IMG/VR virus record: IMGVR_UViG_3300018063_000650
Span: 1 to 36,217 of that record
Length of the DNA: 36,217 bases
Direction: 5' to 3' (one strand)
DNA from: a virus
Shown here: one piece after another, positions 1 to 36,217 of the stretch
Layout: every line of letters begins with the position of its first letter
Position numbering within the stretch: the stretch's first letter is position 1
Notes under the pieces: model-generated
Told to the model about the DNA's origin: nothing
The model's database searches: none
Seen by the model: only the letters and a program-made list of their open reading frames with translations
Position numbers and translations under genes: made by a program

Positions 1-1098
1 GTGTCACACCCCCAACGAGTCGGAACCCTATCTCACCTCCCCTCCGGCCTCTACCGTCGCGGACGCATCTACTACGGGTCCTACCCGGACCCCGAGACCG
101 GGAAGCGCTTGCGCAGGTCCCTGGGATCGGACCTCCGGGTAGCCCTCGCCCGACTGCGGAAGCTCGGGGGCCACACCGCACCCCCACGCAAGCGCAAGGG
201 AGCCGGGACCCTCGTCTCGGAAGTCCTCGCGGCCTACTTCGAGCGAATCACCGTCTACTCCAAACACTCCGTCGTCTTGCAGACTCGTTCCTCTGTGCGA
301 CGGCTCTCGGTACATCTTGGGGATCGCGATGCGTCGAAGCTCTGCCTGAAGGACCTTGAACCCTTCATCGCCGCACGTCGAGCCGACGGGGTTCGAGACT
401 GCACGATAAACGGTGACCTCGGGACATTGCGAACCGCGCTCAACCAGGCGCTTGAATCGAGGAAGCTCGACAAGCTTCCGTTCCGAGTTCGCCTTCTCCG
501 CACAACCAAACGTCGCATCCCGCACCTTCTCTCCGCGGACGATGGACGGAAGCTCCTTGAGAGCGCACGAAGCCTGCGCAAGGGGGGAGAGCGAGCCTAT
601 GGGATCCTGCTCGTATCGCTCTCTACCGGGTTTCGCATCGCCGAGACGTTGCACCTGACCTGGGGAGACTTGGACTTTGCAGCGCACCGAATCAACGTGC
701 GCTCGAAACCAGGAACCTGGACAACCAAGACCTACGCGGAGCGCTCGGTATTCGTGGCCCCTGCTGCAATGGACTATCTGCGCTCGCTCCGGGAGACCCG
801 ACGCGGCGAACCCTCGGAAGGGTGGATCTTCGCGACCAGAGCGGGAACCCCGATGAGCGTCGGAAATGCGGATCGCGTGTTGCGAACCGTCTTCAACCGT
901 GCGGGTCTCTACCGTCGCGGAGCGGGGACCTCCCATCGAATCCGGCACACGGTCGCTTCAACGATGCTTGCCAATGGGGTCGATCTACGGACGACTCAGG
1001 ATGTGCTCGGGCACGCGAGCATCACTACCACGAGCCTCTATCTGCATGTGGTGGATGAGCGGAAGCGAGAGGCAGCGAATCGAATCGGGCTGGTCTGA
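1..1098 (+). CDS. int: Tyrosine-type site-specific integrase
   Basis: Catalyses integration and excision of the prophage. The C-terminal catalytic domain has the full tyrosine-recombinase set: R212 in the box I motif STGFRIAE, a candidate Lys around 235-243, the H312-R-I-R315 box, H338 in LGHAS and the nucleophile Y347 in SLYLHV. The N-terminal part (about 60-160) fits a SAM-like core-binding domain, and the first 55 residues resemble a basic arm-binding domain. Length (365 aa) is normal for phage integrases. It begins with GTG at the first base of the window, so a longer N terminus or a different start upstream cannot be excluded. Its position at the left end, with a split tRNA-Arg at the right end, fits a tRNA-integrating prophage whose attL lies just outside the window. 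Confidence 0.93.
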   Translation: MSHPQRVGTLSHLPSGLYRRGRIYYGSYPDPETGKRLRRSLGSDLRVALARLRKLGGHTAPPRKRKGAGTLVSEVLAAYFERITVYSKHSVVLQTRSSVRRLSVHLGDRDASKLCLKDLEPFIAARRADGVRDCTINGDLGTLRTALNQALESRKLDKLPFRVRLLRTTKRRIPHLLSADDGRKLLESARSLRKGGERAYGILLVSLSTGFRIAETLHLTWGDLDFAAHRINVRSKPGTWTTKTYAERSVFVAPAAMDYLRSLRETRRGEPSEGWIFATRAGTPMSVGNADRVLRTVFNRAGLYRRGAGTSHRIRHTVASTMLANGVDLRTTQDVLGHASITTTSLYLHVVDERKREAANRIGLV

Positions 1099-2115: not shown

Positions 2116-3351
2116 ATGAGCGCCGCCAGTCCCCCGAAGCCGGAGTTCCCGGCCCGTCTCAAGGCGGCTCGGGAGCTCAGGGACTGGAACCAGGCCGTGC
2201 TCGCGCAGAAGGCGGGGTTTCAGGCCTCCGCGATCTCTCGATTCGAGACCGGGGCGGCGAAGCCTTCCCTGGACAATCTCCGCCGATTGGCGACCGCCCT
2301 TCGAGTGTCAACCGACTACTTGTTGGGCGTGGTGAACGAGCCCACTGGAACCAGCCGAAGCGACCCGCTGTATCGGAAGTTCCAAGAACTCACAGACGAC
2401 CACCGAGAATTCGCCGAGCGATTTTTGAATGACCTAGTGAAACTCGGTGAGAGGAGTAGCCGCGTGACTCCCTCTTCTCCTTCTCCCTACACGTGGGCCA
2501 CGCACCGAGCTGAGAAATTGGTTCGAGATTGGGGCATGAATACTCTGCCGATCGATGTGGAGAGCATCGCCAGAAATCACGCGATCGAAGTCCAGGCGAT
2601 GCCCGCCTCAATCAAGGGTGTCTCAGGAATGCTTCAGCGCGCGGGGGACAACTACGGTATCGCATACGCAACCAACATCGACAACGTGGGCTTCCAACGA
2701 TTCAGCATTGCGCACGAGTTGGGCCATTACTTTTTGGATGGGCACTTCGAGAAGCTTCTCAGCAAAACCGGAACGCATGAGTCGCAGGCTGGGTTTGGCT
2801 CAGGCGACAAGTTCGAAATGGAGGCAGACCATTTCGCCGCTGGTCTGTTGATGCCCAATCCTCTCTTCAAGGATGCTCTGGTTCGTGCCGGTAGTGGATT
2901 CACGGCAGTAGAGAGATTGTCTACTCAATTTGCCACGTCGCTCGAGGCTACTGCCATTCGCTACGCCGAGAACACAGATCAGGCTGCGGCGGTAATCGTC
3001 AGCGAGGGCCAAAAAGTCCGCTACTGCTTCATGTCTAATGCTCTCAGGGAGGCACGGGATCTGACCTGGATTCGCAAAGGTGAGATTGTTCCTGAGCACA
3101 CCACCACCGCAGTTTTCAATCGCGACTCAGAGAAGATTGAGCGCGCTGAGAAGGTGGAGGGAACCTGCAACTTGCACGATTGGTTCGGAGGTGGACCTGA
3201 CGTCGAAATGACTGAGGACGTCGTTGGTCTCGGTCGCTATGGCAAGACCCTGACAGTGCTGGTTGCAGACGAGTGGCCGGATGATGAAAACGAGGATGAC
3301 GAAGATCTCTCCGACTTCAATCCAACGTTCCACCGTTCGCGTCGTCGCTAG
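2116..3351 (+). CDS. XRE-family regulator fused to an ImmA/IrrE-type metalloprotease
   Basis: A 411-residue fusion. Residues 12-72 are a Cro/C1-type helix-turn-helix (NQAVLAQKAGFQASAISRFE, then a DNLRRLATAL helix). Residues 125-265 are a zinc metallopeptidase with HELGH at 200-204 and a downstream E-x-E-A-x-x-F-A segment near 234-241 that supplies the third ligand. The C-terminal 150 residues are less conserved and end in an acidic DDENEDDED stretch. ImmA/IrrE proteases cleave phage or element repressors; fusion to an HTH suggests one protein that both represses and responds to an inducing signal. ATG at 2116 is preferred over an earlier start at 2002, whose extra 38 residues look non-coding. 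No separate CI- or Cro-like gene is seen, so this is the best candidate lysogeny repressor. Confidence 0.85.
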   Translation: MSAASPPKPEFPARLKAARELRDWNQAVLAQKAGFQASAISRFETGAAKPSLDNLRRLATALRVSTDYLLGVVNEPTGTSRSDPLYRKFQELTDDHREFAERFLNDLVKLGERSSRVTPSSPSPYTWATHRAEKLVRDWGMNTLPIDVESIARNHAIEVQAMPASIKGVSGMLQRAGDNYGIAYATNIDNVGFQRFSIAHELGHYFLDGHFEKLLSKTGTHESQAGFGSGDKFEMEADHFAAGLLMPNPLFKDALVRAGSGFTAVERLSTQFATSLEATAIRYAENTDQAAAVIVSEGQKVRYCFMSNALREARDLTWIRKGEIVPEHTTTAVFNRDSEKIERAEKVEGTCNLHDWFGGGPDVEMTEDVVGLGRYGKTLTVLVADEWPDDENEDDEDLSDFNPTFHRSRRR

Positions 3352-3687: not shown

Positions 3688-4692
3688 CTACACGTCGCCT
3701 CTTTCGAGGAGGGTCGCGAGGCCCTGAAGCCCGCGTTCGCTGAGATGCTTCAGGAAGTTGTCGAGAGGGGTAAGGTCCTTCGAAATCGAGAAGTGCATGT
3801 CCAGTTCGGCTCCACGGTAGTTCATGGCGAAGCCCCGGACTCGGACCGCATACACCCGTTCAAAGAGCAGCTTGCGCAGCAAAGCATCCGCTTTGCGAGC
3901 CGAAAGAACGGACCAAGGGGCCTTGTCGATTTGCTCTCGGAAGCCAGCGACGATGCTCTTGACTTTGTGGGGTTGATGGTCGTCGACCAGGTGTCGTACC
4001 ACCTCGTCTTCGACGGCTCGCTTTCCCGGCATTTCGGATTGAAGTACCAAGGAGCAGAAATGCGCCAAGGAACTGGGGAGCTGTTCTCCGACGGTCTCGC
4101 CGCGTAATCCTGGAACTCCGACAACGACGAAGAGGTAGGGCAGAGCCTCTGCTTCGTGCTTCTGAAGGCCCTGCTGAATCTTGTACGTAGCCAGGGCGAA
4201 GCAATCTTCGGGCTCGAGGCCAACCAATTCCTTCGCGTTGCGGAATTGGCTTCCGTGAAACTTGATGTTGATTCGAAAGACTTGACGATTCTGGCCGTCT
4301 AGAACTCGGTAGTCAGTATCAGTCCGTCCCTCTCGCGAGTCTTCCAGACGAAGGTCTCCAGCTCCCATCGTCTTCTTGTAAGTGTCTTCAAAGGCTCTCT
4401 CTGAAATCGTTCCCAAGAGCATCTGTCCGAGGTTCTTTCTGGCCTTTGACAGATTCGTCGGTTCTGCCGCCGCGGCGAGGGTCGTCTTCAGGACCTCCTT
4501 GATAGGGTCCCTCGACGATGAGATTGCCTTCAGCCGCTTAGCCGTTGTCTTGAGGGTCTTCGCCAGAACCCTCGGGTCCGCCCCCTTTTTCAGTTCGCGA
4601 ACCGAGAGCAGTAGTCGAAGGTACTTTGGAATCTCGCGCGACTGATAGACAGCCGAGACCGTGGCAGTGACGTCTTCTAGGCCGTTGAGCAT
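3688..4692 (-). CDS. Probable type II restriction endonuclease (PD-(D/E)XK-like)
   Basis: A 334-residue protein that I assign by context plus a nuclease-like core. Residues 95-105 ([10 protein letters not shown]) are followed by [12 protein letters not shown], with acidic residues at 125 and 127, and then [10 protein letters not shown], where N142-I-K144 sits at the place of the (D/E)XK motif. Asn where Asp/Glu is expected is unusual. The protein overlaps the end of the methyltransferase gene by 16 bp on the same strand, the normal arrangement of a type II restriction-modification pair. The start ATG is at 4692. Recognition sequence cannot be read from the sequence. A different role, such as a nuclease-related accessory protein, is possible. 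Confidence 0.6.
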
Positions 4693-5699
4693 TCCGTGGC
4701 GTTTTCGGGGGGTATTCCGAATCGCAGTTTGGAATTCTCAATGTACTTCGGCTCAGTCTCGAACGCCAGCCAACGCCGCTGGAGGGCCTCCGCTACAGCG
4801 CCGGTTGTATTGCTCCCGGCGAACGGGTCAATCACCAAATCCCCAGGCTTGGTCAGGAACTTGATGTAGAACTCGGGTAGGGCCGCAGGGAATCTTGCAG
4901 GATGCGGCTTCATCCCGTGCTCTTCGCACAACCTTATGTAGAGCGAGTTGCTCTCATTGTTCCCGCGTTCGAGAACATTCGACGGTATCGAACCGCCGTG
5001 GTCGAATGAGAACTTGGCAGTAATTTTGTGACCGCTGGGCCGGTCCTTCGCGCGGTATCCGCGCTGAAGAAGTCGGCGCATGTCGGGGCTGTACTCCTCA
5101 AGAACCTGCTTATTGTCGGCCTTCGGATGGGGTGTCTTGGACATCCACCAGACATACTCGACGGAATCCTTGATGCGAATGCGGCGGACGTTCACCCATT
5201 CAGCAGGGCTGGGTAGCTTCGCCGGATTGAACCAAAAGCATTCCTGGGCCAAGTGGAAGCCCAGGTCGTCGCAGAGCATCAGCAGTAGACGGAAGTGATA
5301 CAGGGAGCGAGTTGGAATGCCTGGGTTGTAGCTGCCGCCGATGTTGAGAACGAAGCTGCCGTCCTTCTTTAGGACTCGAAGTATCTGCGTTGCGAATGGC
5401 CTAAACCAATTGACGTAGTCCGACTTCTCCGCGTTCCCGTATTCCTTCTTGAAGTGGAGCGCGTAGGGGGGAGATGTAACTACGAGGTCGACGCTTTCTT
5501 TCGGAAGGGCAGCCAGGGCCTCAGAGGAATCGGCGTTGACCATCGCCCCGAAATCCGTCGTGTAGGCCGGCTCGGGCTGGAGAAGACGCCAGGGGTGTTG
5601 TGAGGGTTTGGGCCTGGCAAGCGGGAGAGGCGGAGCGGACTTCACTACAGCCAGTTGAACCGGCTTCTTCCTCGGCCTCCGGACAGACTTCCGCGCCAC
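4677..5699 (-). CDS. DNA methyltransferase of a type II restriction-modification system (beta class)
   Basis: A 340-residue methyltransferase. Motif IV (VVTSPPYAL, 73-81) precedes motif I ([10 protein letters not shown], 291-300), the beta-class order. TSPPY is more typical of N4-cytosine than of N6-adenine enzymes, and the layout recalls PvuII-type methylases; the exact target is not deducible. It transfers methyl from AdoMet to host DNA, protecting it from the nuclease encoded next. The N-terminal 40 residues are basic and Pro-rich and probably not part of the catalytic fold. The start is GTG at 5699 with GGGGGAG upstream. First gene of the operon methylase, nuclease, winged-helix protein, with its own promoter candidate upstream. 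Confidence 0.88.
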
Positions 5700-5725
5700 G
5701 CCTGCTCCCCCATCGAAGCACTCGC

Positions 5726-5754
5726 AGAATACCGGCTATGTTGGCTATCTACAA
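5726..5754 (-). promoter_or_regulatory. Candidate promoter of the restriction-modification operon
   Basis: Reading on the minus strand, TTGTAG (5754-5749) and TATTCT (5731-5726) are separated by 17 bp, about 27 bp before the GTG start of the methyltransferase. The spacer contains a direct repeat ATAGCC-N3-ATAGCC (5748-5734), which could be an operator for self-regulation. The -35 match is only partial. Confidence 0.35.
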
Positions 5755-5878
5755 TGGGTTTTCGCCCGAGACTGGACCGGACAGAAAGTCCAAGCGGCAA
5801 GTAGAGCTTACGCGGTCCGAGAGACGGCGTTTGGCTGAGCACCAGGAGAATTTCAGGAATCCCCGACCGGGCTGGTTG

Positions 5879-6661
5879 CTAGGCCACGATCCCAGCTTCA
5901 AGCCCAACCGGGTTCAGCCCCAAGCTCTCTGCGTATTCATTGAAGTAGCGCGCGAACCAGATCAGCTTCGAGCGAATGCCTCGATCCGCCTCTTTGATGA
6001 GAGCTGACTCTACGACCTTGCGCACGGTGTCCGGATCGAAGGCCAACGAAGCGGAGGCAGCGGCTGCATTCCCTTTTGGAAAGAGAACCGGCAAAAACCC
6101 CTTTATCCCTGGGCTCAGGTAGTGGAGATGCGCAATGCCATCGAAATCAATTCGTCGGAGGTCAGGAACCCCTGGAGCGGGCTGGTTTAGGAGCACCGAG
6201 GCGACGGTGCGATCTAGTACGATTCGCGGATAGCGCGCAACGCTGCGCTCGAGTTCGTACGCCTCAATCAGCGCGTCCCCAAACACGACATGCTCATCGT
6301 GATAAAGCGAACCGCAGGTGATACCGCCGCGAGTGAAGACTCCTAGCCCGAGGAGACGAAGGCAAAGAATGGAACTTGCCATCGCGATGAGTGCAGGGCT
6401 GTAGCGAGCTTCAGACGACAAAACAATGTTGTCCGAAAAGGCTGTTGCCGACAGCATGTTCTTCCACAGATCGGTCGGGCCTCCCTCGACTACTTCGGGT
6501 CGGTATGCCGCGACCTCCCTCAAGATCGCGAGTATCTCCTCAAAGAGATGACGCTCGCTGTGAACCCGCTTGACGAGGGCGGAGAAACCAAGGATGTCGA
6601 TGAACGCGACATATCGTCGATTGGCGAAGTAGTTCTGGTAGGTTTCTGTGGCGACTCCCAT
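5879..6661 (-). CDS. Class III nucleotidyl-cyclase-like protein (Pycsar PycC-like)
   Basis: A 260-residue soluble protein with the class III cyclase core. RYVAFIDILGFSALV (17-30) matches the first metal-binding strand, with D22. FSDNIVLSS (76-83) matches the second strand, with metal D77. RGGITCG (111-117) followed by VFGDALIEAYELE (126-138) matches the later core, where cyclases have RxGI...GD.VN.A.RLE. Cyclases with FIDILGFS-type cores include the Pycsar PycC enzymes, which make cCMP or cUMP on infection and trigger a TM or TIR effector. Substrate cannot be told from sequence. It is the last gene of a tight minus-strand operon that begins with a TIR protein, 11 bp after a small gene. A diguanylate cyclase is excluded by the lack of GG(D/E)EF. 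Function in defence is inferred. Confidence 0.75.
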   Translation of the reverse strand: MGVATETYQNYFANRRYVAFIDILGFSALVKRVHSERHLFEEILAILREVAAYRPEVVEGGPTDLWKNMLSATAFSDNIVLSSEARYSPALIAMASSILCLRLLGLGVFTRGGITCGSLYHDEHVVFGDALIEAYELERSVARYPRIVLDRTVASVLLNQPAPGVPDLRRIDFDGIAHLHYLSPGIKGFLPVLFPKGNAAAASASLAFDPDTVRKVVESALIKEADRGIRSKLIWFARYFNEYAESLGLNPVGLEAGIVA

Positions 6662-6672
6662 GAAACTAATAC

Positions 6673-6912
6673 CTAGCTGAACCGCGGTGCCGATGCCGAC
6701 TGCCTGAAGTCAGAGGGAATAAGGACTTCGTCCATCCAGGCACTCACAAACGAACCAGAGCAGTACGATCGCATGACGCCAGGTTCCGGGTAATCGGTCA
6801 CGTATAGACAGGCGCGATGGGCTACTGGATTCCTTCCCCGCTCATTGAGATAGCTATGGAGAATGGTTGAGGCGTGGGGCTGCTCGTGTCGCACGATCAG
6901 CGCTTTCATCAT
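6673..6912 (-). CDS. Small protein upstream of the cyclase-like gene
   Basis: A 79-residue protein of unknown family (MMKALIVRHEQPHASTILHS...). It is mixed alpha/beta, with no signal peptide or membrane segment, and contains HRACLYVTDYPEP and SAWMDEVLIPSDF. Its ATG overlaps the stop of the preceding small gene by 4 nt (ATGA) and its stop lies 11 bp before the cyclase start, so it is placed as if translationally coupled. No strong ribosome site precedes it, in line with coupling. It could be a modulator or partner of the cyclase. Reality of the gene rests mainly on spacing. Confidence 0.5.
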   Translation of the reverse strand: MMKALIVRHEQPHASTILHSYLNERGRNPVAHRACLYVTDYPEPGVMRSYCSGSFVSAWMDEVLIPSDFRQSASAPRFS

Positions 6913-7055
6913 CTGAATTGCGTTATCTCGGCTGATTCGATGCGCGGGAATGTGTTCATGATGAGATCATGATACTCACCCTGCTTGAATTCTCTCAACC
7001 GAAAGCACCTCTGCTTTGGCTTCAGCTGATCGCACAGTTGATAGCCAGAGTACAT
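6909..7055 (-). CDS. Very small protein of the TIR/cyclase operon
   Basis: A 48-residue candidate gene starting at ATG 7055, with GGAG 7 nt upstream. The reading frame is open back to an ATG at 7127, which overlaps the previous gene by 14 bp, but the extra 24 residues are Ser/Cys-rich and look non-coding. The product (MYSGYQLCDQLKPKQRCFRL, then EFKQGEYHDLIMNTFPRIE) looks like a genuine compact protein. Its TGA overlaps the next ATG by 4 nt. Unknown function. Confidence 0.4.
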   Translation of the reverse strand: MYSGYQLCDQLKPKQRCFRLREFKQGEYHDLIMNTFPRIESAEITQFR

Positions 7056-7113
7056 CCGGCGTCTCCACACTTGATAAGACCAACACAGACTGGTGCAGGA
7101 CAGGCTAGAGGCG

Positions 7114-7842
7114 CTAACGCGGCTCATCAGTCCCGGGTTCGAACAAGCGGACGGCCTGCGCAGCCTTCACGTTCTCTCGGACAACCGTTGCCAGCTCAAG
7201 CAGCCGAACCATCGAACCTACCCGCAGCGGCAGCTCCTTCCGATACGCTACACGCTTGCCCTCATCGAACTCACCACCATGTATGAAGCCGCCTGGTGGC
7301 GATAACTTTCTCTGTGTCGCTAGCGAAAGGCCGCCAGCGTGACTGTACTGGTCATAGAATTTGGAGATTTCATCAAAGGTTTTCCACCCTTGCGCGTTGA
7401 CTCCTAGGATCTCTCGGTTCCGCTTTCGCTGGACAAGTCCCAGCGCGGTATCAACTCGAAATCTTGTAGGGTCTCGGTCGAATCGCTCGAAGACGTCGAT
7501 TGCATGATGCGAACAAAGTAGAGCCATCGCGTATGCCTCACTGTAGTGGCGCATCAGGTTTCCCGCCGGAATCTGAAAGCCAGAAATAAACAGGTGGCAC
7601 GACGTAAGTGAACTGTTGAAGGCAGAATGGAGAAACGCCTCGACCCAAGCAGCGCGTAGTTCCTTGGCGAGTCCTTCGCCAAACCTATGCACTCCTCCAA
7701 TCGCGCGCGTCGACGTATCGAGGAACCTCTCAATTAGGTCGCCAAACTCCTCCCTGAATCGTGAGCGGACGTCGGCATTGTCGGCAAAGAGGATGCCCTC
7801 TAGGTCCCGTCGCTTGAGCTGGTAGGTCGATTCGCGCTTCAC
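7114..7842 (-). CDS. Helical protein of unknown function in the TIR/cyclase operon
   Basis: A 242-residue protein, second gene of the operon. The GTG start at 7842 overlaps the TIR stop by 4 nt (GTGA), so the two are almost certainly cotranslated. The sequence appears mostly alpha-helical: DVRSRFREEFGDLIERFLD, then a central hydrophobic but not clearly transmembrane segment (IPAGNLMRHYSEAYAMALLC) and a C-terminal helix (VGSMVRLLELATVVRENVKAA). Several conserved-looking His and Tyr are present (HYSEAY, YDQYSHAGG, FIHGGEF). The central helices recall proteins annotated as DUF5677-like, but this is weak. Probably the functional partner of the TIR protein. Confidence 0.7.
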   Translation of the reverse strand: MKRESTYQLKRRDLEGILFADNADVRSRFREEFGDLIERFLDTSTRAIGGVHRFGEGLAKELRAAWVEAFLHSAFNSSLTSCHLFISGFQIPAGNLMRHYSEAYAMALLCSHHAIDVFERFDRDPTRFRVDTALGLVQRKRNREILGVNAQGWKTFDEISKFYDQYSHAGGLSLATQRKLSPPGGFIHGGEFDEGKRVAYRKELPLRVGSMVRLLELATVVRENVKAAQAVRLFEPGTDEPR

Positions 7843-8600
7843 ACCAATTCGTGCTCCACGAGATAGCTGCGACCCTCATCTCTGAGAGAGTATGAACTGG
7901 GTCCGATGGGGTTGTAGTGCTCCTCAAGAAGTCCGCGCTCGTGAAGACGACTGATGTAGTGCTTGGTTCGTGTCAAATTCTCTTGGATCTGCCCTGCCAG
8001 TTCATCGGCAACAAGACCCCCATCTACGGATTCGTTATCAGACAGAACCTTGAGGATTCGGTGTTCCTTCTCACCAAGTGCGCCTTCACTCGACCGCGCG
8101 GGAGCTTGGGGCTGCCTTTGGCCCTTGGGTATTGCTTTGAAACGCGCCTCAATCCCCGGCCAACACACGTCGAATGACTGGGCAAGTCTGGCCTCCGCGA
8201 TTGGAGTTGAAGACACCTCATTGATGGATCGGGCGAGCTTTAGAAGATCTTCCTTACTGACGGAGGTGCACTGGAATTGCAGCAGAGGGCTTCCTTGAAG
8301 CTCCGATGTGCCTATTCCCACGAGTAGCGGCGCGAGACGACGATCCTTCAGGGCGCCAGCGATGGCCCCTGCTTCGAAATTCAGCCACGGACTTTGAAAG
8401 TTCCCCGCATCAACGCAAACGATGCCAAAGTCCGACTCCGCCAATTCACGAGCGATCTCGGCTGACCAGCGGTTTCCCTTCGCGATGTCCTCCGAAGAGA
8501 CCCAAGGCTCAGCAAACGGGAGCACCGTCGGCAACCAGTCGCGCATGGCCAATGCCACCGCGTGGCTTTGCGCTCCAGACCAACCCACGAAAATCTGCAT
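7839..8600 (-). CDS. TIR domain protein with C-terminal winged helix
   Basis: A 253-residue two-domain protein. Residues 1-150 form a TIR domain of the bacterial effector type: MQIFVGWSG (strand A), EPWVSSEDIAKGNRW (BB-loop region), SDFGIVCVDAGN and PWLNFEAGAIAG, in which E76 aligns with the catalytic Glu of TIR NADases. Residues 176-250 are a winged helix (HRILKVLSDN, VADELAGQI, TRTKHYISRLHERGLLEE, YSLRDEGRSYL). TIR proteins of defence systems such as Thoeris or Pycsar consume NAD when triggered; here the sensor domain typical of those is replaced by a DNA-binding-type domain. AAGGAG 6 nt before ATG gives a secure start. First gene of a five-gene operon ending in a cyclase-like gene. Confidence 0.85.
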   Translation of the reverse strand: MQIFVGWSGAQSHAVALAMRDWLPTVLPFAEPWVSSEDIAKGNRWSAEIARELAESDFGIVCVDAGNFQSPWLNFEAGAIAGALKDRRLAPLLVGIGTSELQGSPLLQFQCTSVSKEDLLKLARSINEVSSTPIAEARLAQSFDVCWPGIEARFKAIPKGQRQPQAPARSSEGALGEKEHRILKVLSDNESVDGGLVADELAGQIQENLTRTKHYISRLHERGLLEEHYNPIGPSSYSLRDEGRSYLVEHELV

Positions 8601-8920
8601 GACACGCTCCTTGGATCCACAAGCACGGACTGACGCAGGATAGCGTGCCTGGCGCTCGACGTTCCGCTGTGGCGAGCGATCGACTCTCGACCTGACCCTC
8701 CGGCTACCCGAGATTGGAAGGATCGTCCCCTCAGATTCGCCTGGACAAAGTGCCCTCGATTATCTTATTACTTGTGTAGAGACGAAGAGCGCGTTTCAGT
8801 CGCTGCGTCTCCCACCGAACCCCGCGACTCGCTCGCAGGGATCACCAGACAGAACCAAATAGTCGATACGCGTCGAGAGCTTCTCGACGATCCCCATCGG
8901 TGTGTGTTGAGGAGACGAAC
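8601..8920. promoter_or_regulatory. Divergent intergenic region between the TIR operon and the early region
   Basis: No gene is seen in these 320 bp. They separate the minus-strand TIR operon from plus-strand early genes, so promoters for both should lie here. An AT-rich patch around 8757-8780 contains a minus-strand GATAAT but no convincing -35. At 8871-8889 there is a perfect 8-bp inverted repeat (CGTCGAGA, 3-nt centre, TCTCGACG), an operator- or hairpin-like element about 30 bp before the NUMOD4 gene. Confidence 0.5.
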
Positions 8921-9286
8921 ATGAGCCACATCAAGCATTGGTACGAAGAGCAGGATCAGTTGGACGAACCAATAGACGCTGAGTGTCTTCCGCAGCGGAT
9001 TGGCACCGGCCCCGTGATCGAGCTCAACAGCGAGCGCTATCTCGACCCGACCCCGTTACCCGGGGAGGAGTTCCGACCGATCGTTGGCTATGAAGACGCG
9101 TACGAGGTCTCGAATCTCGGGCGCGTCCGATCGCTAGAACGCGAAGTGCCCGACAATACTGGAATGCGAATCGTCCGCGAGCGGATCTTGCGATCGGTAG
9201 CTGTCTTGTCCAGGAACGGTTCTCAGCGAGAACGCACCATCGCGTCGTTGATGCGAGAAGCGTTCCTCGAACAAGGAAGCCAATAG
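8921..9286 (+). CDS. NUMOD4-motif protein
   Basis: A 121-residue protein whose centre (EEFRPIVGYEDAYEVSNLGRV then RSLERE) is a clear NUMOD4 motif, a module normally joined to HNH homing endonucleases and thought to help DNA recognition. The C-terminal part (ERTIASLMREAFLEQ) resembles the helix that usually follows in such proteins (VxxLVxxAFL). The HNH catalytic domain is absent, so it is either a stand-alone DNA-binding protein or the remnant of a homing endonuclease. ATG at 8921 has GGAGAC 5 nt upstream and is preferred over a start seven codons earlier. Confidence 0.75.
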   Translation: MSHIKHWYEEQDQLDEPIDAECLPQRIGTGPVIELNSERYLDPTPLPGEEFRPIVGYEDAYEVSNLGRVRSLEREVPDNTGMRIVRERILRSVAVLSRNGSQRERTIASLMREAFLEQGSQ

Positions 9287-9320
9287 AAGGGGACGATACA
9301 CCGAAACAGGTCGATTCGTC

Positions 9321-9350
9321 TTGACTTTGACCCGCAAGAAGTCTTATGAT
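9321..9350 (+). promoter_or_regulatory. Sigma-70-type promoter for the early replication region
   Basis: TTGACT (9321-9326, 5/6 match to the -35 consensus) and TATGAT (9345-9350, 5/6 match to the -10) are separated by 18 bp. Transcription would begin near 9357, a few bases before the first of a series of stem-loops and about 300 nt before the replication-type gene at 9658. Confidence 0.65.
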
Positions 9351-9356
9351 TCCCTA

Positions 9357-9605
9357 TTGGAGCGCGCGTCGAACAGACGCGCTCCTACTCGTGGACTAAT
9401 CCTCTGAACAAAACTCCCTCCGCTCGCGAACAACGAGCGCGAGCGGTAGGGAACAAGGGAGACCGCTCCGGCGCGAGTAACGTCGTTACTAAAAGGCTCC
9501 TGTCCTGGCGTGAGCGGACGAACCAGGACACAAGACCCCGCGCAATCGGGGTTGATTCTCCCCCTATACGCGCATTGTTTCCGGCCGGGTAGCTCCCGGC
9601 CGGAG
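9357..9605 (+). ncRNA. Highly structured leader or non-coding RNA region
   Basis: This gene-free stretch contains six successive inverted repeats. H1: 9360-9366 with 9378-9384 (GAGCGCG/CGCGCTC). H2: 9420-9428 with 9438-9446 (9 bp perfect, CCGCTCGCG/CGCGAGCGG), extended by TCCCT/AGGGA after one bulged base. H3: 9476-9482 with 9484-9490. H4: 9501-9508 with 9523-9530 (TGTCCTGG/CCAGGACA). H5: 9535-9540 with 9547-9552. H6: 9580-9589 with 9595-9604 (10 bp, 5-nt loop). None is followed by a T-tract, so they are not ordinary terminators. It lies directly downstream of a good promoter. Could be a structured 5' UTR, an independent RNA, or a replication-linked DNA structure. Confidence 0.55.
9476..9490. 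promoter_or_regulatory. Operator-like palindrome
   Basis: AGTAACGTCGTTACT is a perfect 7-bp inverted repeat around a single central T, a form typical of a repressor-binding dyad. As RNA it would give only a 5-bp stem with a 5-nt loop. Located inside the structured leader between the early promoter and the replication-type gene. Confidence 0.4.
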
Positions 9606-9657
9606 CGCGCGGGGAGCGCACGAAGGAAATCGTATAGGAACCAAAAGGGAGAACTAG

Positions 9658-10278
9658 ATGCCATTAGAGACCAAAATCAACATGCACAAAATCAACGACT
9701 TCATTATCGAGAGCCCCGACCTATTCACCCATGCAGAAGCGCGCGTCGCCTACTTCTGCATGAATCTTGCCTATGGAGCGAACAAGGCCACATTCTTCGC
9801 CGGAGCCACTTACATAGCCGAGCGTCTTGGATGCTCGCGCGATGCGGTCTATGCCACCTGGGAAAAGCTCCAGCGCATGGGTTGGATCGCGGACACGGGA
9901 GAAAGGAAGGGACGCGCCACTGTCTGGAGAATCGACTATCGCAAAGCGTGGAACGACTACGTAATGTCGAGCCAGTCGACACTATCGTCGATTCAATCGA
10001 CAGTGAGTGTCGAACCAGTCGACACGAATGTCGACTCAACCCGCACTAATCCTCCGAAGGAAGCCTCCGAACTGAATCCACCTAAAGAATCCACAAGAAA
10101 TGCGACCTCGATTTCTTCGAAACCGGGTCGTGCTGTTGTTCAGGGTGGTAGGGAGGAAGAAGGGACGGCCAACCCTTCCTCTGGTCGAGTTCAGGGGAAG
10201 ATGAAGCGACGCACTGCGGCCCGCGACATTCTCGCTGACCTTGCTGACATGGATCGCCATGCCAACGGGTGGTGGTAG
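9658..10278 (+). CDS. Winged-helix replication-type protein
   Basis: A 206-residue protein. Residues 20-90 form a helix-turn-helix or winged-helix domain (HAEARVAYFCMNLAYG, ATYIAERLGCSRDAVYATWE, KLQRMGWIADTG, RATVWRIDY), the pattern of N-terminal domains of phage and plasmid replication initiators. The rest (100-185) is a low-complexity Ser/Thr/Pro-rich linker, then a basic C-terminal helix (GKMKRRTAARDILADLADMD). The linker-coding DNA holds a dense cluster of GTCGA dyads, as in lambdoid O-type genes that contain their own origin. ATG at 9658 follows GGGAGAA. It is the first gene after the early promoter and structured leader and overlaps the next methyltransferase gene by 10 bp. It might alternatively be only a regulator. 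Confidence 0.65.
   Translation: MPLETKINMHKINDFIIESPDLFTHAEARVAYFCMNLAYGANKATFFAGATYIAERLGCSRDAVYATWEKLQRMGWIADTGERKGRATVWRIDYRKAWNDYVMSSQSTLSSIQSTVSVEPVDTNVDSTRTNPPKEASELNPPKESTRNATSISSKPGRAVVQGGREEEGTANPSSGRVQGKMKRRTAARDILADLADMDRHANGWW
9965..10035. repeat. Cluster of GTCGA dyads inside the replication-type gene, possible origin
   Basis: Seven TCGA cores occur in 71 bp. A perfect palindrome GTCGATTCAATCGAC (9987-10001) is nested within TCGACACT (9976-9983) and its inverse AGTGTCGA (10006-10013). CCAGTCGACAC occurs twice as a direct repeat (9972-9982 and 10015-10025). The cluster encodes the Ser/Val/Asp-rich linker of the protein, where sequence is free to drift. The arrangement resembles iterons in an initiator gene; origin activity is inferred. 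Confidence 0.45.
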
Positions 10279-11168
10279 AGGTGCCCCCACCAGTAGCTGC
10301 GTACCAGAATCAGCTCTTCGCTCCTCCACTCGGACGAGCTGAGATCCTTCACGGAGACTGCCTCGAGCTACTGCAAGAGATCGACTCTTCCAGCATTGAT
10401 GCCGTGATCACTGACCCTCCCTACGCGGAGATTGGCCGAGACTACGGGCGACTCTCCGAACCCGATTGGCACGCACTCATGCGAGACGTGGTGCGAGAGA
10501 CCAGACGGGTTCTCAAGCCCCAGGGCTCCGCGGTCTTCATCCTGCAACCGAACTCCGAACACGTAGGACGCATGCGCACCTGGGTCTGGGAGTTCCTGGT
10601 TGAGCAAGCCAAGGACTGGAACCTGATCCAGGACGTGTACTGGTGGAACAACGCGGCTCTGCCCAACACCCACGTTCAAGCCCGATACGGGCTCCTGCGC
10701 CCAAGCGTCAAGATGTGCATTTGGCTCGGAGATCCCGACTGCTATCGGAACCAGGATGCAGTCCTGTGGTCGCCCTCTGAAGCTTCGATGAAGCTCGAGC
10801 AATCTGCGGACTGGACGCGACGTAGCCATCCCTCGGGACACACTACTTGCGCTGCGTCCTTTGCGCGGAGCCTCAAGGAACGCGGGAACAGAGTGACCCC
10901 GTTCAATCTACTTCCCCTCCCGAATACACGATCAACTGACTCCGCGGGAGCCTATGGGCACGGAGCCGGAACTCCTCAAGAGCTTTGCGACTGGTGGACG
11001 AGATACATCGTCCCCGACAACGGAACAGCCCTCGACCCATTTTGTGGAAGCGGATCAACTGGGCTCGCAGCCGTGAGCCGGGGCAAGAACTGGATCGGGA
11101 TAGAGAAGGAAGCGAGCTACGTCGAGATAGCTCGCACTAGACTGAACGAATACACCGCTCTGCAATGA
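10269..11168 (+). CDS. Solitary phage DNA methyltransferase (DPPY, beta class)
   Basis: A 299-residue AdoMet-dependent DNA methyltransferase. Motif IV is ITDPPYA (about 47-53) and motif I is DPFCGSGSTG (256-265), so beta class; DPPY suggests N6-adenine. After motif I, WIGIEKEASYVEIARTRL is the usual acidic-strand segment. Between the motifs lies a long target-recognition part. No nuclease gene is adjacent, so it probably protects phage DNA from host restriction or marks replicating DNA. It overlaps the upstream gene by 10 bp; GTG at 10269 is the start used here, with GTG at 10281 as an alternative and no strong ribosome site for either. Confidence 0.85.
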   Translation: MVVEVPPPVAAYQNQLFAPPLGRAEILHGDCLELLQEIDSSSIDAVITDPPYAEIGRDYGRLSEPDWHALMRDVVRETRRVLKPQGSAVFILQPNSEHVGRMRTWVWEFLVEQAKDWNLIQDVYWWNNAALPNTHVQARYGLLRPSVKMCIWLGDPDCYRNQDAVLWSPSEASMKLEQSADWTRRSHPSGHTTCAASFARSLKERGNRVTPFNLLPLPNTRSTDSAGAYGHGAGTPQELCDWWTRYIVPDNGTALDPFCGSGSTGLAAVSRGKNWIGIEKEASYVEIARTRLNEYTALQ

Positions 11169-11169
11169 G

Positions 11170-11799
11170 TCACTCAAGCGGCTTCATGCCGTTTCGTACG
11201 CGTTCCGCGTCCTCTTGAGCTAGTGCGTCCTTCAGGTAGTGCAGCAGTGTACGCGCATCGTTGGAGAGTGCCGGCTTGTCGTAAAAGGTGTGAGATTTCG
11301 ACTTGGAGTAGTGCCCTTCAATCAGGTTCATAAAGCGTCTGATCTTCTCCAGGATCTGATCCAGAGTCGTCGCTGCGATTCCCGGATCGGGCTCGTTCTT
11401 CAACGCAGTTGCTAGATCAGAATGAGCCAAAACCCGATTGCGAAGTCCTCTCAATGGCTGAGCAAGGGTCTCGATCTCGGAGAGAATCTTATCAAGCGAT
11501 TCAGCCAACGGATCATTGCGCAACTCGCGTACTCGCTCGGACAACATTGCCAACGAAGCGTTCTCTCTGCCGCCCGTGCGAGATCTATCCGTAAGGCGGG
11601 CAATGGCGAGCACGATGGAATCGAAGAACGTCGCGCGAACTGTCACGAAGAAGAACGAACCGGTGTGCTTGAGAATTCGAGCATTCTCGGAAGACCCATC
11701 AAACAGCTGGCGGAGCATGATCCACCGCACATGAAGGCGAACCACCTCTTGCCACCTGCTCTTGAATAGCTCTCGAATCTCTTCGGGTAGTGATTCCAT
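11170..11799 (-). CDS. HEPN/AbiU2-like protein
   Basis: A 209-residue helical protein. RGLRNRVLAHSD (117-128) contains R120-x5-H126, the R-x(4-6)-H motif of HEPN ribonucleases. The N-terminal helices (SRWQEVVRLHVRWIMLRQLF, then FFVTVRATFFDSIVLAIARL and TDRS) match the pattern of AbiU2-type HEPN proteins linked to abortive infection. If active, it would cut RNA; no antitoxin partner (MNT-type nucleotidyltransferase) lies next to it. It stands alone on the minus strand between early and late modules, ending 2 bp after the methyltransferase gene on the opposite strand, typical of an inserted moron with its own promoter. Assignment to AbiU2 is from memory of the motif pattern. Confidence 0.65.
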   Translation of the reverse strand: MESLPEEIRELFKSRWQEVVRLHVRWIMLRQLFDGSSENARILKHTGSFFFVTVRATFFDSIVLAIARLTDRSRTGGRENASLAMLSERVRELRNDPLAESLDKILSEIETLAQPLRGLRNRVLAHSDLATALKNEPDPGIAATTLDQILEKIRRFMNLIEGHYSKSKSHTFYDKPALSNDARTLLHYLKDALAQEDAERVRNGMKPLE

Positions 11800-11864
11800 C
11801 GCTTCCCTTCAATTCCTCCCCGATGGCGCAAGGCAACTACGACTGGCCATACACCCTACTGCAT

Positions 11865-11963
11865 CTCACCGTGGGAACAATCCGAGAGCAGACTGAGTGA
11901 GGGAACCACGGTGAGGGTTCGCCTGCGCAGACCTCGAGCCTCACCCGCTCTGACTGCGCGGGC
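11865..11963. other. Two tandem strong stem-loops before the late operon
   Basis: In the 200-bp gap between the HEPN gene and the late operon, CTCACCGTGG (11865-11874) pairs perfectly with CCACGGTGAG (11906-11915). Directly after it GCCTGCGCAG (11921-11930) pairs with CTGCGCGGGC (11954-11963) with one G-T wobble. No T-tract follows. They could be a leader RNA for the late transcript or part of the HEPN promoter region. Confidence 0.45.
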
Positions 11964-12000
11964 CCCTCACCAAACGATCACACGAGCAGGAAGGAAGTAG

Positions 12001-12219
12001 ATGAGCCCCATCAATGAGTACAACATCAAGAGCACCGTTAGGGATGCAGAAGCGTGGGAAGTCACGGCCCAACGGCTGTTCTCACAAGGATGCGTGGGAA
12101 TCCTTGAGGGAACCAACATCATCGCCCGAGTGGTGGGCTTCGTTGAAGATCCGATCTATGGGAAGTTGATCGCAATTCAACGATTAGATGATCCAAAGAT
12201 CAACGCGATAGCGGCTTGA
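12001..12219 (+). CDS. Small protein at the start of the late operon
   Basis: A 72-residue protein of unknown family. It begins with MSPINEYNIKSTVRD, and the middle (QGCVGILEGTNIIARVVGFV) suggests a small beta-rich domain; no signal or membrane segment. The start is supported by GGAAGGAAG just upstream. It precedes the small terminase by 169 bp and follows the tandem stem-loops. Such tiny genes before terminase are common in siphophages; no function is assigned. Confidence 0.6.
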   Translation: MSPINEYNIKSTVRDAEAWEVTAQRLFSQGCVGILEGTNIIARVVGFVEDPIYGKLIAIQRLDDPKINAIAA

Positions 12220-12388
12220 TCCGTTTCCTTGCGAGTTCCGCATCTTCATGCAGTCTCCCTATAGGGGGAAGGGGGATCAAATCTCTATGACTCTTGATGC
12301 GCCGCGACCGCGCCCCAGTCCTTCTCACACGCCCGCAGTTCCCGAGGCTTGGGGGTCAGCCCCAGTTCCCCGCAAAGGATAAACACCT
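12220..12388 (+). other. Gene-free stretch before terminase, possible packaging or regulatory region
   Basis: No gene is seen. It contains the 10-bp palindrome CCCTATAGGG (12257-12266), continued by a purine run GGGGGAAGGGGGA, and further on GGGGTCAGCCCC near 12352. In cos-type HK97-like phages the packaging site lies just upstream of the small terminase, so this is the natural place to look, but no cos sequence can be recognised directly. Confidence 0.3.
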
Positions 12389-12835
12389 ATGAACGCACCT
12401 ACTCCTACCGCTTTGAAGATCCTGAGGGGTAATCCTGGCCATCGTCCGCTCACTCCGGACGAACCCCAGCCGGCAAGCCCTCTCCAAGACCCACCAGACT
12501 ACCTCGATTCGATCGCCCTGGACGAATGGGAGCGGGTCTACCCCGAGCTTCATCGCTTGGGTCTTTTGACCTTGGTAGACCGCACCGCTCTCGCTGCTTA
12601 TTGCGTCAAGTACTCCGAATGGAGGCAAGCGCTCAAGGAGATAGAAGCTCACGGACGGACGATCACGACACCCAACGGGTTGCTTCAGACCTCACCCCAT
12701 GTGACGCAAGCGCGCGATGCGCTCTCGGAAATGATGCGCATCGCCAAGGAGTTCGGATTCACTCCGGCTTCCCGCGCCCGTCTTTCCGTGCAACCCGCTC
12801 CAGTCTCGGAGGATACAGAGGATCTACTCCAGTAG
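12389..12835 (+). CDS. terS: Phage terminase small subunit, P27 family
   Basis: A 148-residue DNA-binding packaging protein that recognises phage DNA and recruits the large subunit. The N-terminal PTALKILRGNPGHRPL is the hallmark of P27-family small terminases, and the following LDEWERVYPELHRLGLLTLVD, AAYCVKYSEWRQALKEIEAHG and TTPNGLLQTSPHVTQARDA segments are the family core. Length is usual. The ATG follows AAAGGATAAACACCT. Its TAG is directly adjacent to the large-terminase ATG, so the two are cotranscribed and probably coupled. Confidence 0.93.
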   Translation: MNAPTPTALKILRGNPGHRPLTPDEPQPASPLQDPPDYLDSIALDEWERVYPELHRLGLLTLVDRTALAAYCVKYSEWRQALKEIEAHGRTITTPNGLLQTSPHVTQARDALSEMMRIAKEFGFTPASRARLSVQPAPVSEDTEDLLQ

Positions 12836-19851: not shown

Positions 19852-20213
19852 TGCGAATGAAGGTGTCTGGTGATAAGGAACTGCAAAGAGCGCTCGACGG
19901 GATCGTTTCTGACGTGATGAAGGGACTTCCCGAGGCTGCGCTCGATAGCGTTCAGCTGATGGTCGACTCGGCCAAGGAAAAGGCTCCTGTCCAGACCGGA
20001 CACCTACGCGATTCGATCTCCGCAGACATCTCCGAACAGACTTCTACGTCCGTCACCATCGAAGTGGGGCCAACCGCGGAGTATGCAGACGACGTGGAGC
20101 TAGGGGGACTTCACCGCGCCGCCAAGCCGTTCTTGCGGCCCGCAGCGGATGAGACTGAAACCGCTGTCGTTGAAGACCTCGTAAAGAGGGTCAATCGTCT
20201 CCTGGAGCTGTAG
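19851..20213 (+). CDS. HK97 gp10-like tail completion protein
   Basis: A 120-residue protein matching the HK97 gp10 family: KVSGDKELQRALDGIVSDVM at the N terminus, then VDSAKEKAPVQTGHLRDSI, the signature of the family, and VEVGPTAEYADDVELGGLHRA with AKPFLRPAADE near the end. The ATG at 19851 overlaps the previous stop. It acts at the head-tail interface during tail completion. Confidence 0.88.
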   Translation: MRMKVSGDKELQRALDGIVSDVMKGLPEAALDSVQLMVDSAKEKAPVQTGHLRDSISADISEQTSTSVTIEVGPTAEYADDVELGGLHRAAKPFLRPAADETETAVVEDLVKRVNRLLEL

Positions 20214-34049: not shown

Positions 34050-34371
34050 CGCCCTCTGTGGCCCGCAACTTCAGCAGTATCAGAAGAGTGAGAAAATACT
34101 TGGAAGTTCCCTGAAGAGATCCCTTTGAGGATTGCTCTCGGAGGGTCGTACTCTCTGTACGTCTTCCCTGGGTAGTCTCTCAGCAGATTGGATCTATCAA
34201 GAAAGAGAGGAAATACATGGAAGTACTTCCCGGTGATCTTCTCTTATAGATCCCCCAGGGAGGTCATTAGTACTACCAAGATAAGATTGCGAGAACCGTG
34301 CCAACGCAATTTGCGTTCTCACGCGAATTATCAGATGTGTATAGGAAGGGCACAAGCCCAGGAGGAACTGA
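34050..34371. repeat. Gene-free right arm with a degenerate direct repeat and dyad
   Basis: No gene is seen in these 320 bp. Two related segments (34071-34130 and 34180-34263) share TCAGCAG, GAAATAC-TGGAAGT, TTCCC and AGATCCC blocks in the same order, about 110 bp apart. A perfect palindrome AACGCAATTTGCGTT lies at 34303-34317, flanked by GAGAAC/GTTCTC. The repeats could be arm-type recombination sites or regulator sites; they lie about 640-835 bp from the right attachment site. Confidence 0.5.
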
Positions 34372-34830: not shown

Positions 34831-34904
34831 CCCGGGGGTGTCACAGCTGATAGGACGGAGCCGGCATGGTCGAGCGGAATCGGGGACTTGGAAGCGTAGG
34901 GATC

Positions 34905-34912
34905 CTTCGAAG
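34905..34912. other. Right attachment site (attR) core
   Basis: The palindrome CTTCGAAG covers the anticodon loop of a tRNA-Arg. The sequence to the right (34913-34944) is tRNA 5' half and host DNA; to the left it no longer fits a tRNA and GC drops. This places phage-host crossover within a few bases of this core. The matching attL is outside the window, so the exact core length cannot be measured. Confidence 0.65.
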
Positions 34913-34944
34913 CCTGATGCTCTATCCAGCTGAGCTACCGGCGC
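34906..34944 (-). pseudogene. 5' half of tRNA-Arg (UCG), split by the prophage
   Basis: Read on the minus strand from 34944: acceptor strand GCGCCGG, TA, D-stem GCTC with loop AGCTGGATA and GAGC, then A, anticodon 5' stem TCAGG and loop CTTCGAA (anticodon TCG). A normal tRNA would continue with CCTGA to close the anticodon stem; here GGATC follows, with no variable loop, T-arm (GGTTCGA...) or CCGGCGC acceptor strand. The 3' half should be at the left end of the prophage. I cannot see whether the phage supplies a replacement 5' half there. Confidence 0.75.
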
Positions 34945-35001
34945 GCGAGGCGAGGTGGCAGGTTGGATACCGGAGGCGAGGGGAGCGCGCCAGCGGCGGG
35001 C

Positions 35002-36024
35002 TCAGTAGCCGCTCTTCTTCTTCTCGGCGGCCTGGATCTTCTGGTAGAGCGCCTCGAGCTGCGAGGAGAGCAGCTTGCTCCCGATCGAGACCTTGGCGCC
35101 GCCCCCGAAGCCCGTCACCTGGTCGGTGGAGGTGCGGTTCGTGTAGATCACGAGGGTGCCCTTCTGCATCGGGAGGAGCCCCGCGATGGCCTGCTCGGAG
35201 TTGTAGCCGCCGCTCACGTAGAACTGGCGCTGCGCGATCACCCAGGCGTCGCCCTCGGGTACGTAGAGGCTGTGCATGAGCGCGATCGTCGGCACGCCGT
35301 GGGCGTTGTAATGCTCCCAGCGGTAGGCCTCCTCGGTGCCCGGGGGCTTCGAGCCCGGGTAGTTGAGGAACAAGTCGTGGGCGTTGGGCACCATCGCCTG
35401 GAGCTTCTTGGTGGCCTGGGTGGCCGACCGGATCTCGTCGGCCGGCGAGCGCGGCTTCCCGCCGGCGCCTGCATAAGGCGTGATTCCCGCCAGCCCCTTG
35501 GCCTGATACGCCTGGAGGCGCGCGAGCAGCGCGCTGCGAACCGCCTGCTCGACGGCAGCCGTCGAGGCCCCGCTCCCGAGCTTGCCGAAGGCCGCGATCT
35601 CCTCGCTGGAAAGGTTGAGCGCGGTTCCGGGCTTCGCGTTCAGGTAGGCCTGCGTACGCTTCTGCGCGTCGGGCTGGAGCGTGAGCTTCGCGAAGCTGTC
35701 GAGGGTCGGCGCGCCCGAGAGCATCTCGAAGGCGATCACGTTCGAATCCATCTGGTCGATGAGACCCGACTTCAGCTGCTTCACGAGATCGGTCGGCGAG
35801 TCCTGCACCAGGAAGGCGAAGGCCGCGACGATCTCGCGCTCCGAGCTCGGCTGAATGCTGCCGCTCACGAAGCTTCCCGCCTCGACCTGGGCGATTTGAT
35901 CCTTGCTGAACCCGATCTCGGCGAGAAAGGTCGCGGCATCCGGGAGCTCCGCCGCGGCGGGCCGCCCGAGAGCGGCGACGAGGGCGAGCGAGAGCGCTCC
36001 GCGTGCGATCCAGGTCCGAAGCAT
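35002..36024 (-). CDS. Exported host protein of unknown function
   Basis: A 340-residue chromosomal protein. ATG at 36024 has ACGAGGAGACGACC upstream; an earlier ATG six codons back is less good. Residues 1-25 (MLRTWIARGALSLALVAALG, RPAAA) are a classic signal peptide with an Ala-x-Ala cleavage site. The mature part (FLAEIGFSKDQIAQVEAGSF, RTQAYLNAKPGTALNLSSEE, YVSGGYNSEQAIAGLLPMQK) is alpha/beta and ends in a Lys-rich tail. Unrecognised family; likely periplasmic or secreted. GC content is clearly higher than in the phage genes. It follows the partial gene upstream by 19 bp, probably in the same operon. Confidence 0.8.
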   Translation of the reverse strand: MLRTWIARGALSLALVAALGRPAAAELPDAATFLAEIGFSKDQIAQVEAGSFVSGSIQPSSEREIVAAFAFLVQDSPTDLVKQLKSGLIDQMDSNVIAFEMLSGAPTLDSFAKLTLQPDAQKRTQAYLNAKPGTALNLSSEEIAAFGKLGSGASTAAVEQAVRSALLARLQAYQAKGLAGITPYAGAGGKPRSPADEIRSATQATKKLQAMVPNAHDLFLNYPGSKPPGTEEAYRWEHYNAHGVPTIALMHSLYVPEGDAWVIAQRQFYVSGGYNSEQAIAGLLPMQKGTLVIYTNRTSTDQVTGFGGGAKVSIGSKLLSSQLEALYQKIQAAEKKKSGY

Positions 36025-36043
36025 GGTCGTCTCCTCGTTCATT

Positions 36044-36217
36044 TCATCCGGCGAGCTCGCGGAGCTCCTTGCCGACCTCCGGCAGCAGCCCCGATCGCTC
36101 GAGCCAGTAAGCGCAGAGCGTCGCGTAGAGCCGCTCGACGCAAGGGCGCTGGTAGTCGTAGCGAGCGTCCGTGTTGAACGACGCCCACAGCGTGGCGAAC
36201 GGATTTGGCTCGAAGAC
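36044..36217 (-). CDS. 3' end of an unidentified host gene (partial)
   Basis: The last 57 codons of a minus-strand gene whose start lies beyond the window. The visible C terminus reads VFEPNPFATLWASFNTDARY, then DYQRPCVERLYATLCAYWLE and RSGLLPEVGKELRELAG, ending in TGA at 36046-36044. Codon use is strongly GC-rich at third positions, as in its neighbour. Not enough remains to assign a family. Confidence 0.6.
   Translation of the reverse strand, partial: VFEPNPFATLWASFNTDARYDYQRPCVERLYATLCAYWLERSGLLPEVGKELRELAG

Follow-up and report, generated by a model that had tools for sequence, protein, structure and literature searches.

The window analysed here, which is the whole stretch of 36,217 bases of the IMG/VR virus record IMGVR_UViG_3300018063_000650, reads as a temperate tailed phage by gene content, with integrase and repressor genes near its start and terminase and structural genes beyond the replication region (Table 1). 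A structured non-coding stretch at about 9357-9657 lies between a gene for a NUMOD4 protein and an O-like replication initiation gene (rep), whose PHROG 678 match agrees with the replication-type gene that an earlier note on this DNA had placed there; searched by sequence against PDB, the rep protein gave no match. The iterons inside rep are a likely replication origin and lie 300-400 bp downstream of the structured stretch. Behind the stretch the co-directional run is short, consisting of rep and one methyltransferase gene followed by a reverse gene.

Several features of the neighbourhood are recorded as observations in their own right. Compared by eye, the NUMOD4 protein ends where relatives (e.g. 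L041 and L030) continue into an HNH-like domain, and it is probably truncated or a NUMOD4-only form. Reverse-strand cargo at 3688-8600 and 11170-11799 resembles a defence block, in which gene 3688-4692 could be the restriction endonuclease partner of the type II methyltransferase that it overlaps. At 34900-36217 a partial tRNA-like sequence, recognized by eye, is followed by DNA richer in GC (the last ~1.2 kb); ARAGORN reported no complete tRNA at this end, and the reverse-strand gene at 35002-36042 had no Pfam or NCBIfam match. Because this last ~1.2 kb is richer in GC and sits after the tRNA-like part it is probably host DNA, and 34900-36217 is probably an attachment site with host flank; a search for the host gene of this end in genome contigs gave no match.

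Table 1. Features of the window that bear on the structured stretch and its surroundings
Feature	Position	Strand	Details
Tyrosine integrase	1-1098		
XRE repressor with ImmA/IrrE-type peptidase domain	about 2116-3351		
Type II methyltransferase	4677-5699	reverse	overlaps gene 3688-4692
TIR-TM-like protein	7839-8600	reverse	
NUMOD4 protein	8921-9286	+	121 aa; precedes structured stretch
Sigma-70-like promoter	9321-9350	+	TTGACT 9321-9326, spacer 18, TATGAT 9345-9350; 10/12 matches; predicted start about 9357
Hairpin 1	9359-9385	+	8 bp; alternative 7 bp GCGCGTC/GACGCGC with GAACA loop
Hairpin 2	9415-9452	+	9 bp core 9420-9446, plus 5 bp extension TCCCT/AGGGA
SD copy GGAACAAGGGAGA	9449-9462	+	near copy of rep SD segment GGAACCAAAAGGGAGA; predicted competitor for anti-SD strand
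Hairpin 3	9476-9490	+	6 bp AGTAAC/GTTACT, 3-nt loop
Hairpin 4	9501-9530	+	8 bp TGTCCTGG/CCAGGACA
Hairpin 5	9535-9552	+	6 bp ACCCCG/CGGGGT; 3' arm alternatively pairs with 9712-9719 in rep coding sequence
Anti-SD strand	9556-9570	+	TTCTCCC (9556-9562) and CCTATACG (9563-9570)
Hairpin 6	9580-9604	+	10 bp TCCGGCCGGG/CCCGGCCGGA, 5-nt loop, enclosed by anti-SD helix
CGTATAGG	9631-9638	+	partner of 9563-9570
Shine-Dalgarno (SD) of rep, GGGAGAA	9647-9653	+	spacing to ATG 9658; pairs with 9556-9562
O-like replication initiation gene (rep)	9658-10278	+	206 aa; PHROG 678 replication initiation O-like, E 3e-10
Iterons TGTCGAaCCAGTCGACAC	9954-10034		inside rep, plus strand; period 21, 3.7 copies
DNA methyltransferase gene		+	next after rep; terminase and structural genes further on
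AbiU2-like HEPN protein	11170-11799	reverse	

The six consecutive stem-loops described in the earlier note are present as six non-overlapping perfect Watson-Crick hairpins of 6-10 bp within 9359-9604, and none of 2000 dinucleotide-preserving shuffles held six hairpins of at least 6 bp (shuffle mean 0.90). Four stems reached at least 8 bp against a shuffle mean of 0.058, and by a separate count no other 250-nt stretch of the window has three distinct hairpins of 7 bp or more. The minimum free energy (MFE) of 9351-9610 was -125.3 kcal/mol (z -5.8), with z values of -5.7 to -6.1 for longer versions of the plus strand. A 240-nt z-score scan of the plus strand (308 scanning windows, including additional ones placed over 9357-9657) gave four of its five lowest values on this stretch, the single lowest, -5.4, belonging to the scanning window at 34097. 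No frame of the six carries a coding signal in this stretch, in keeping with the lack of a protein-coding pattern reported before, and a coding function on either strand was rejected. No ATG precedes position 9658 in the leader; as a sign of a leader this depletion was set aside, being non-significant against dinucleotide shuffles (P 0.24). The structured non-coding stretch is genuine and strongly non-random. It had been described as ending 53 bp before rep, which is true of the hairpins (last base 9604), while the structured pairing extends to 9653.

This further pairing involves the rep ribosome-binding site. Two segments separated by an 8-base gap, CGTATAGG (9631-9638) and GGGAGAA (9647-9653), are both complementary to 9556-9570. 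For transcripts running from 9357 to at least 9720 the partition function gives an anti-SD/SD pairing probability of about 0.99, and the rep SD has an unpaired probability of 0.009 compared with means of 0.43 and 0.38 for shuffled leaders, a value as low being reached in none of 240 shuffles. The SD is thus predicted to be stably helical beyond chance, as is expected of cis-acting SD-sequestering leaders in general. Occlusion in the transcript from 9357 was stable across 15 to 55 C; it was kept for starts from 9355 on where the end was at least 9720, and for all tested starts where the end was 9850. The upstream SD copy (9449-9462) is predicted to hold the anti-SD strand in most transcripts ending before about 9690, to lose it after the early rep codons are transcribed, and to keep it where a transcript starts further upstream and ends by 9760; energies for 300-nt RNA folds are rough, and the balance between the two states varies with transcript start and end. 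Other phage genes behind long non-coding upstream stretches had an SD unpaired probability of about 0.19-0.40. Closed SDs were also predicted at two further phage genes, at 12836 and 19516, which counts against reading the stretch as a leader, although each of these follows a translated gene, so that ribosomes would alter the fold.

Signals for transcription were examined on both strands. The sigma-70-type promoter described as good in the earlier note has the sequence given there, but it does not exceed chance expectation: it was the sole match in 8300-12500, where shuffles predicted 1.4. Since this frequency is unremarkable, the only extra support for the promoter is its position right before hairpin 1. 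The T-tracts said to be missing are indeed missing, with no T-tract terminator found on the plus strand and none before rep. A consensus scan of the minus strand of 8600-9900, with other promoter types outside its reach, found no convincing antisense promoter; the sole promoter-like site there was weak (8/12 at 9372) and at the far end of the leader.

The expectation that the stretch would match no nameable RNA family agrees with a search of Rfam 15 across the window, which returned zero matches at the gathering score and chance matches only at E values up to 5. Within the searched collections the only other copy was a contig that showed no difference across the 10.6 kb compared, and because this sole copy is identical there is no covariation evidence for the stems. 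No DNA similarity to the stretch was detected in phages or PLSDB plasmids. The rep protein, sought in phages, viral contigs, six related virus records and two MAGs, was found in the identical contig only; its absence from 395 genomes belonging to the same phylum as one MAG with the terminase carries little weight, as this phylum may not be that of the host. Protein searches with NUMOD4, integrase, methyltransferase and terminase yielded no relative with the leader, and when the anti-SD helix, the SD segment or the iteron was sought as a DNA pattern, the hits were the phage's own contig and chance matches in coding sequence. The viral, genome, phage and plasmid collections thus gave no diverged relative of the leader, although these collections cannot show how widespread the leader is. 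Within the window, a 15-nt direct repeat at 19978 was dismissed because it is located in a gene and random segments give comparable repeats, and 34050-34370, considered as another copy of the element, had no real similarity to it on alignment. The region 34050-34371 is a second long non-coding structured stretch in its own right, directly 5' of an HNH endonuclease gene, with a whole-stretch z of -2.9 and no credible Rfam match.

We consider the most plausible role of the stretch, at a likelihood somewhat short of even, to be that of a cis-acting leader gating translation of the O-like replication initiator. The stretch from about 9357 to 9657 would be the 5' untranslated leader of the rep mRNA, acting in cis on rep translation. 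In the nascent leader the hairpins would form and the anti-SD bases 9556-9562 would be captured by the upstream SD copy (9457-9462). After transcription of the SD and the first codons, 9556-9562 would pair instead with the SD at 9647-9653, with the pairing of 9563-9570 and 9631-9638 acting as a clamp on this helix, and ribosome entry would be blocked. The gene would be opened by whatever favours the upstream pairing, whether a protein, an antisense RNA or the timing of transcription, and the overall effect would be low or brief synthesis of the initiator. Transcription of the leader, the switch and its trigger are inferred from the predicted folds. Of the roles suggested earlier for an untypical structured RNA (replication control, a riboregulator or an RNA with its own role), a replication-linked structured RNA is the best supported; a discrete RNA is less favoured than a cis-acting mRNA leader because the pairing reaches the rep SD.

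Comparison with known systems points to shared logic of mechanism. The rep leaders of I-complex plasmids use, among other devices, a leader peptide and a pseudoknot, and the P4 CI RNA and P1/P7 c4 RNA are structured phage RNAs in leaders beside key genes, with alternative internal pairing. In the repC leader of pT181, one strand has two alternative partners, an upstream pre-emptor and the segment that contains the rep ribosome-binding site (PMC5703833). The predicted competition of 9457-9462 and 9647-9653 for 9556-9562 follows similar pre-emptor logic; the pT181 switch, however, is set by antisense RNAI and acts mainly through transcription termination, whereas in the phage leader no terminator and no antisense promoter were found, and the gene behind it encodes an O-like initiator. 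Specifically, the minus-strand consensus scan of 8600-9900 found no promoter for a pT181-type counter-transcribed RNA in the leader or the start of rep, and the plus strand has no T-tract that would make the ribosome-binding-site stem an intrinsic terminator of the pT181 type. In the rep leader of pSK41 the initiator ribosome-binding site is sequestered in a stem and the effect is on translation (PMC5703833). Both would close this site in a structured rep leader without termination, but closure is triggered by an antisense RNA in pSK41 and predicted without one in the phage. The resemblance to pT181 and pSK41 would be one of mechanism, and a DNA search of PLSDB plasmids gave no sequence relation. 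The I-complex rep leaders (ColIb-P9, IncK) are likewise structured and control initiator translation, using antisense RNAI (PMC10724649), in contrast to which the phage leader has no ATG before 9658. The P4 CI and P1/P7 c4 RNAs work as antisense RNAs that pair with leader sequences (PMC7567579); the likeness lies in a structured phage leader with alternative pairing near key genes, but here no trans target beyond random segments and no Rfam match were found, and the leader is not assigned to the c4 type.

Other explanations have to be weighed against a leader that gates rep. The hairpins may act at the DNA level, as the earlier note also allowed. Whether as duplex or as single strands, they may, for instance, belong to the origin region, serve as a site of primosome assembly or single-strand initiation, or form an array beside rep to which a protein binds. 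This role, which we regard as unlikely, stays a candidate because both strands fold about equally (minus-strand z about -5.1, close to the plus strand) and the perfect Watson-Crick stems leave few G-U pairs (3 of the 83 pairs in the MFE), and the stretch adjoins a replication gene with iterons. However, the six stems have no sequence common to all, unlike a single protein-binding array, the likely origin is further downstream in rep, and the region is not AT-rich. The unpaired positions of the plus strand are also A-rich (53 A against 25 T, p 0.001), although the A/T skew of the whole stretch is only within the top 7% of the window. The perfection of the stems and the scarcity of G-U pairs would also suit functionless inverted repeats kept perfect by template switching in quasipalindromes, an explanation that the lack of conservation evidence allows as well; six independent hairpins in 250 bp, a concentration unique in a compact phage genome and beyond every shuffle, together with the SD occlusion, make it improbable.

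The promoter-like site and the strong compact fold would also suit an independent small RNA of ~250-300 nt that starts from the promoter at 9321-9350, is processed or terminates ahead of rep and acts in trans in immunity or riboregulation, as the P4 CI and P1 c4 RNAs do, and non-coding RNAs complementary to gene leaders have precedents in P1, P7, N15, P4 and phiR73 (PMC7567579). We find this equally hard to credit, since no terminator precedes rep, no Rfam family matches, the phage encodes a protein repressor (XRE with an ImmA-type domain), and a trans target in the phage was rejected, the longest complement being 12 nt, which is ordinary compared with random segments. An RNA antiterminator or elongation signal like HK022 put or EAR would suit stacked hairpins without T-tracts directly behind a promoter-like site, but it is very unlikely given that the short co-directional stretch offers little to antiterminate and that Rfam holds no match.

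The case for a rep leader is therefore made by structure and SD occlusion beyond shuffles, the competing SD copy, the A-rich unpaired positions, the non-coding nature of the stretch, the promoter-like site directly 5' of it and the O-like gene with internal iterons downstream, and is weakened by the nearly equal minus-strand z, a promoter at chance level, the lack of an antisense promoter and the lack of a diverged relative. It is doubtful, though conceivable, that the leader represents a new class of phage RNA switch, in which initiator synthesis would be timed or limited, without an antisense RNA, by six hairpins together with an internal copy of the ribosome-binding-site segment, perhaps by sensing a ligand, a protein or the speed of transcription.

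The leader model names the exact bases whose mutation could test gating of the SD. Translational gating of replication initiators by structured leaders is well known in plasmids, and O-type initiators of phages are usually discussed as transcriptionally controlled. If the proposed switch is true, an RNA brake of the plasmid kind would act on the replication gene of this prophage, and this would matter for the decision between induction and lysogeny in phages of uncultured bacteria.
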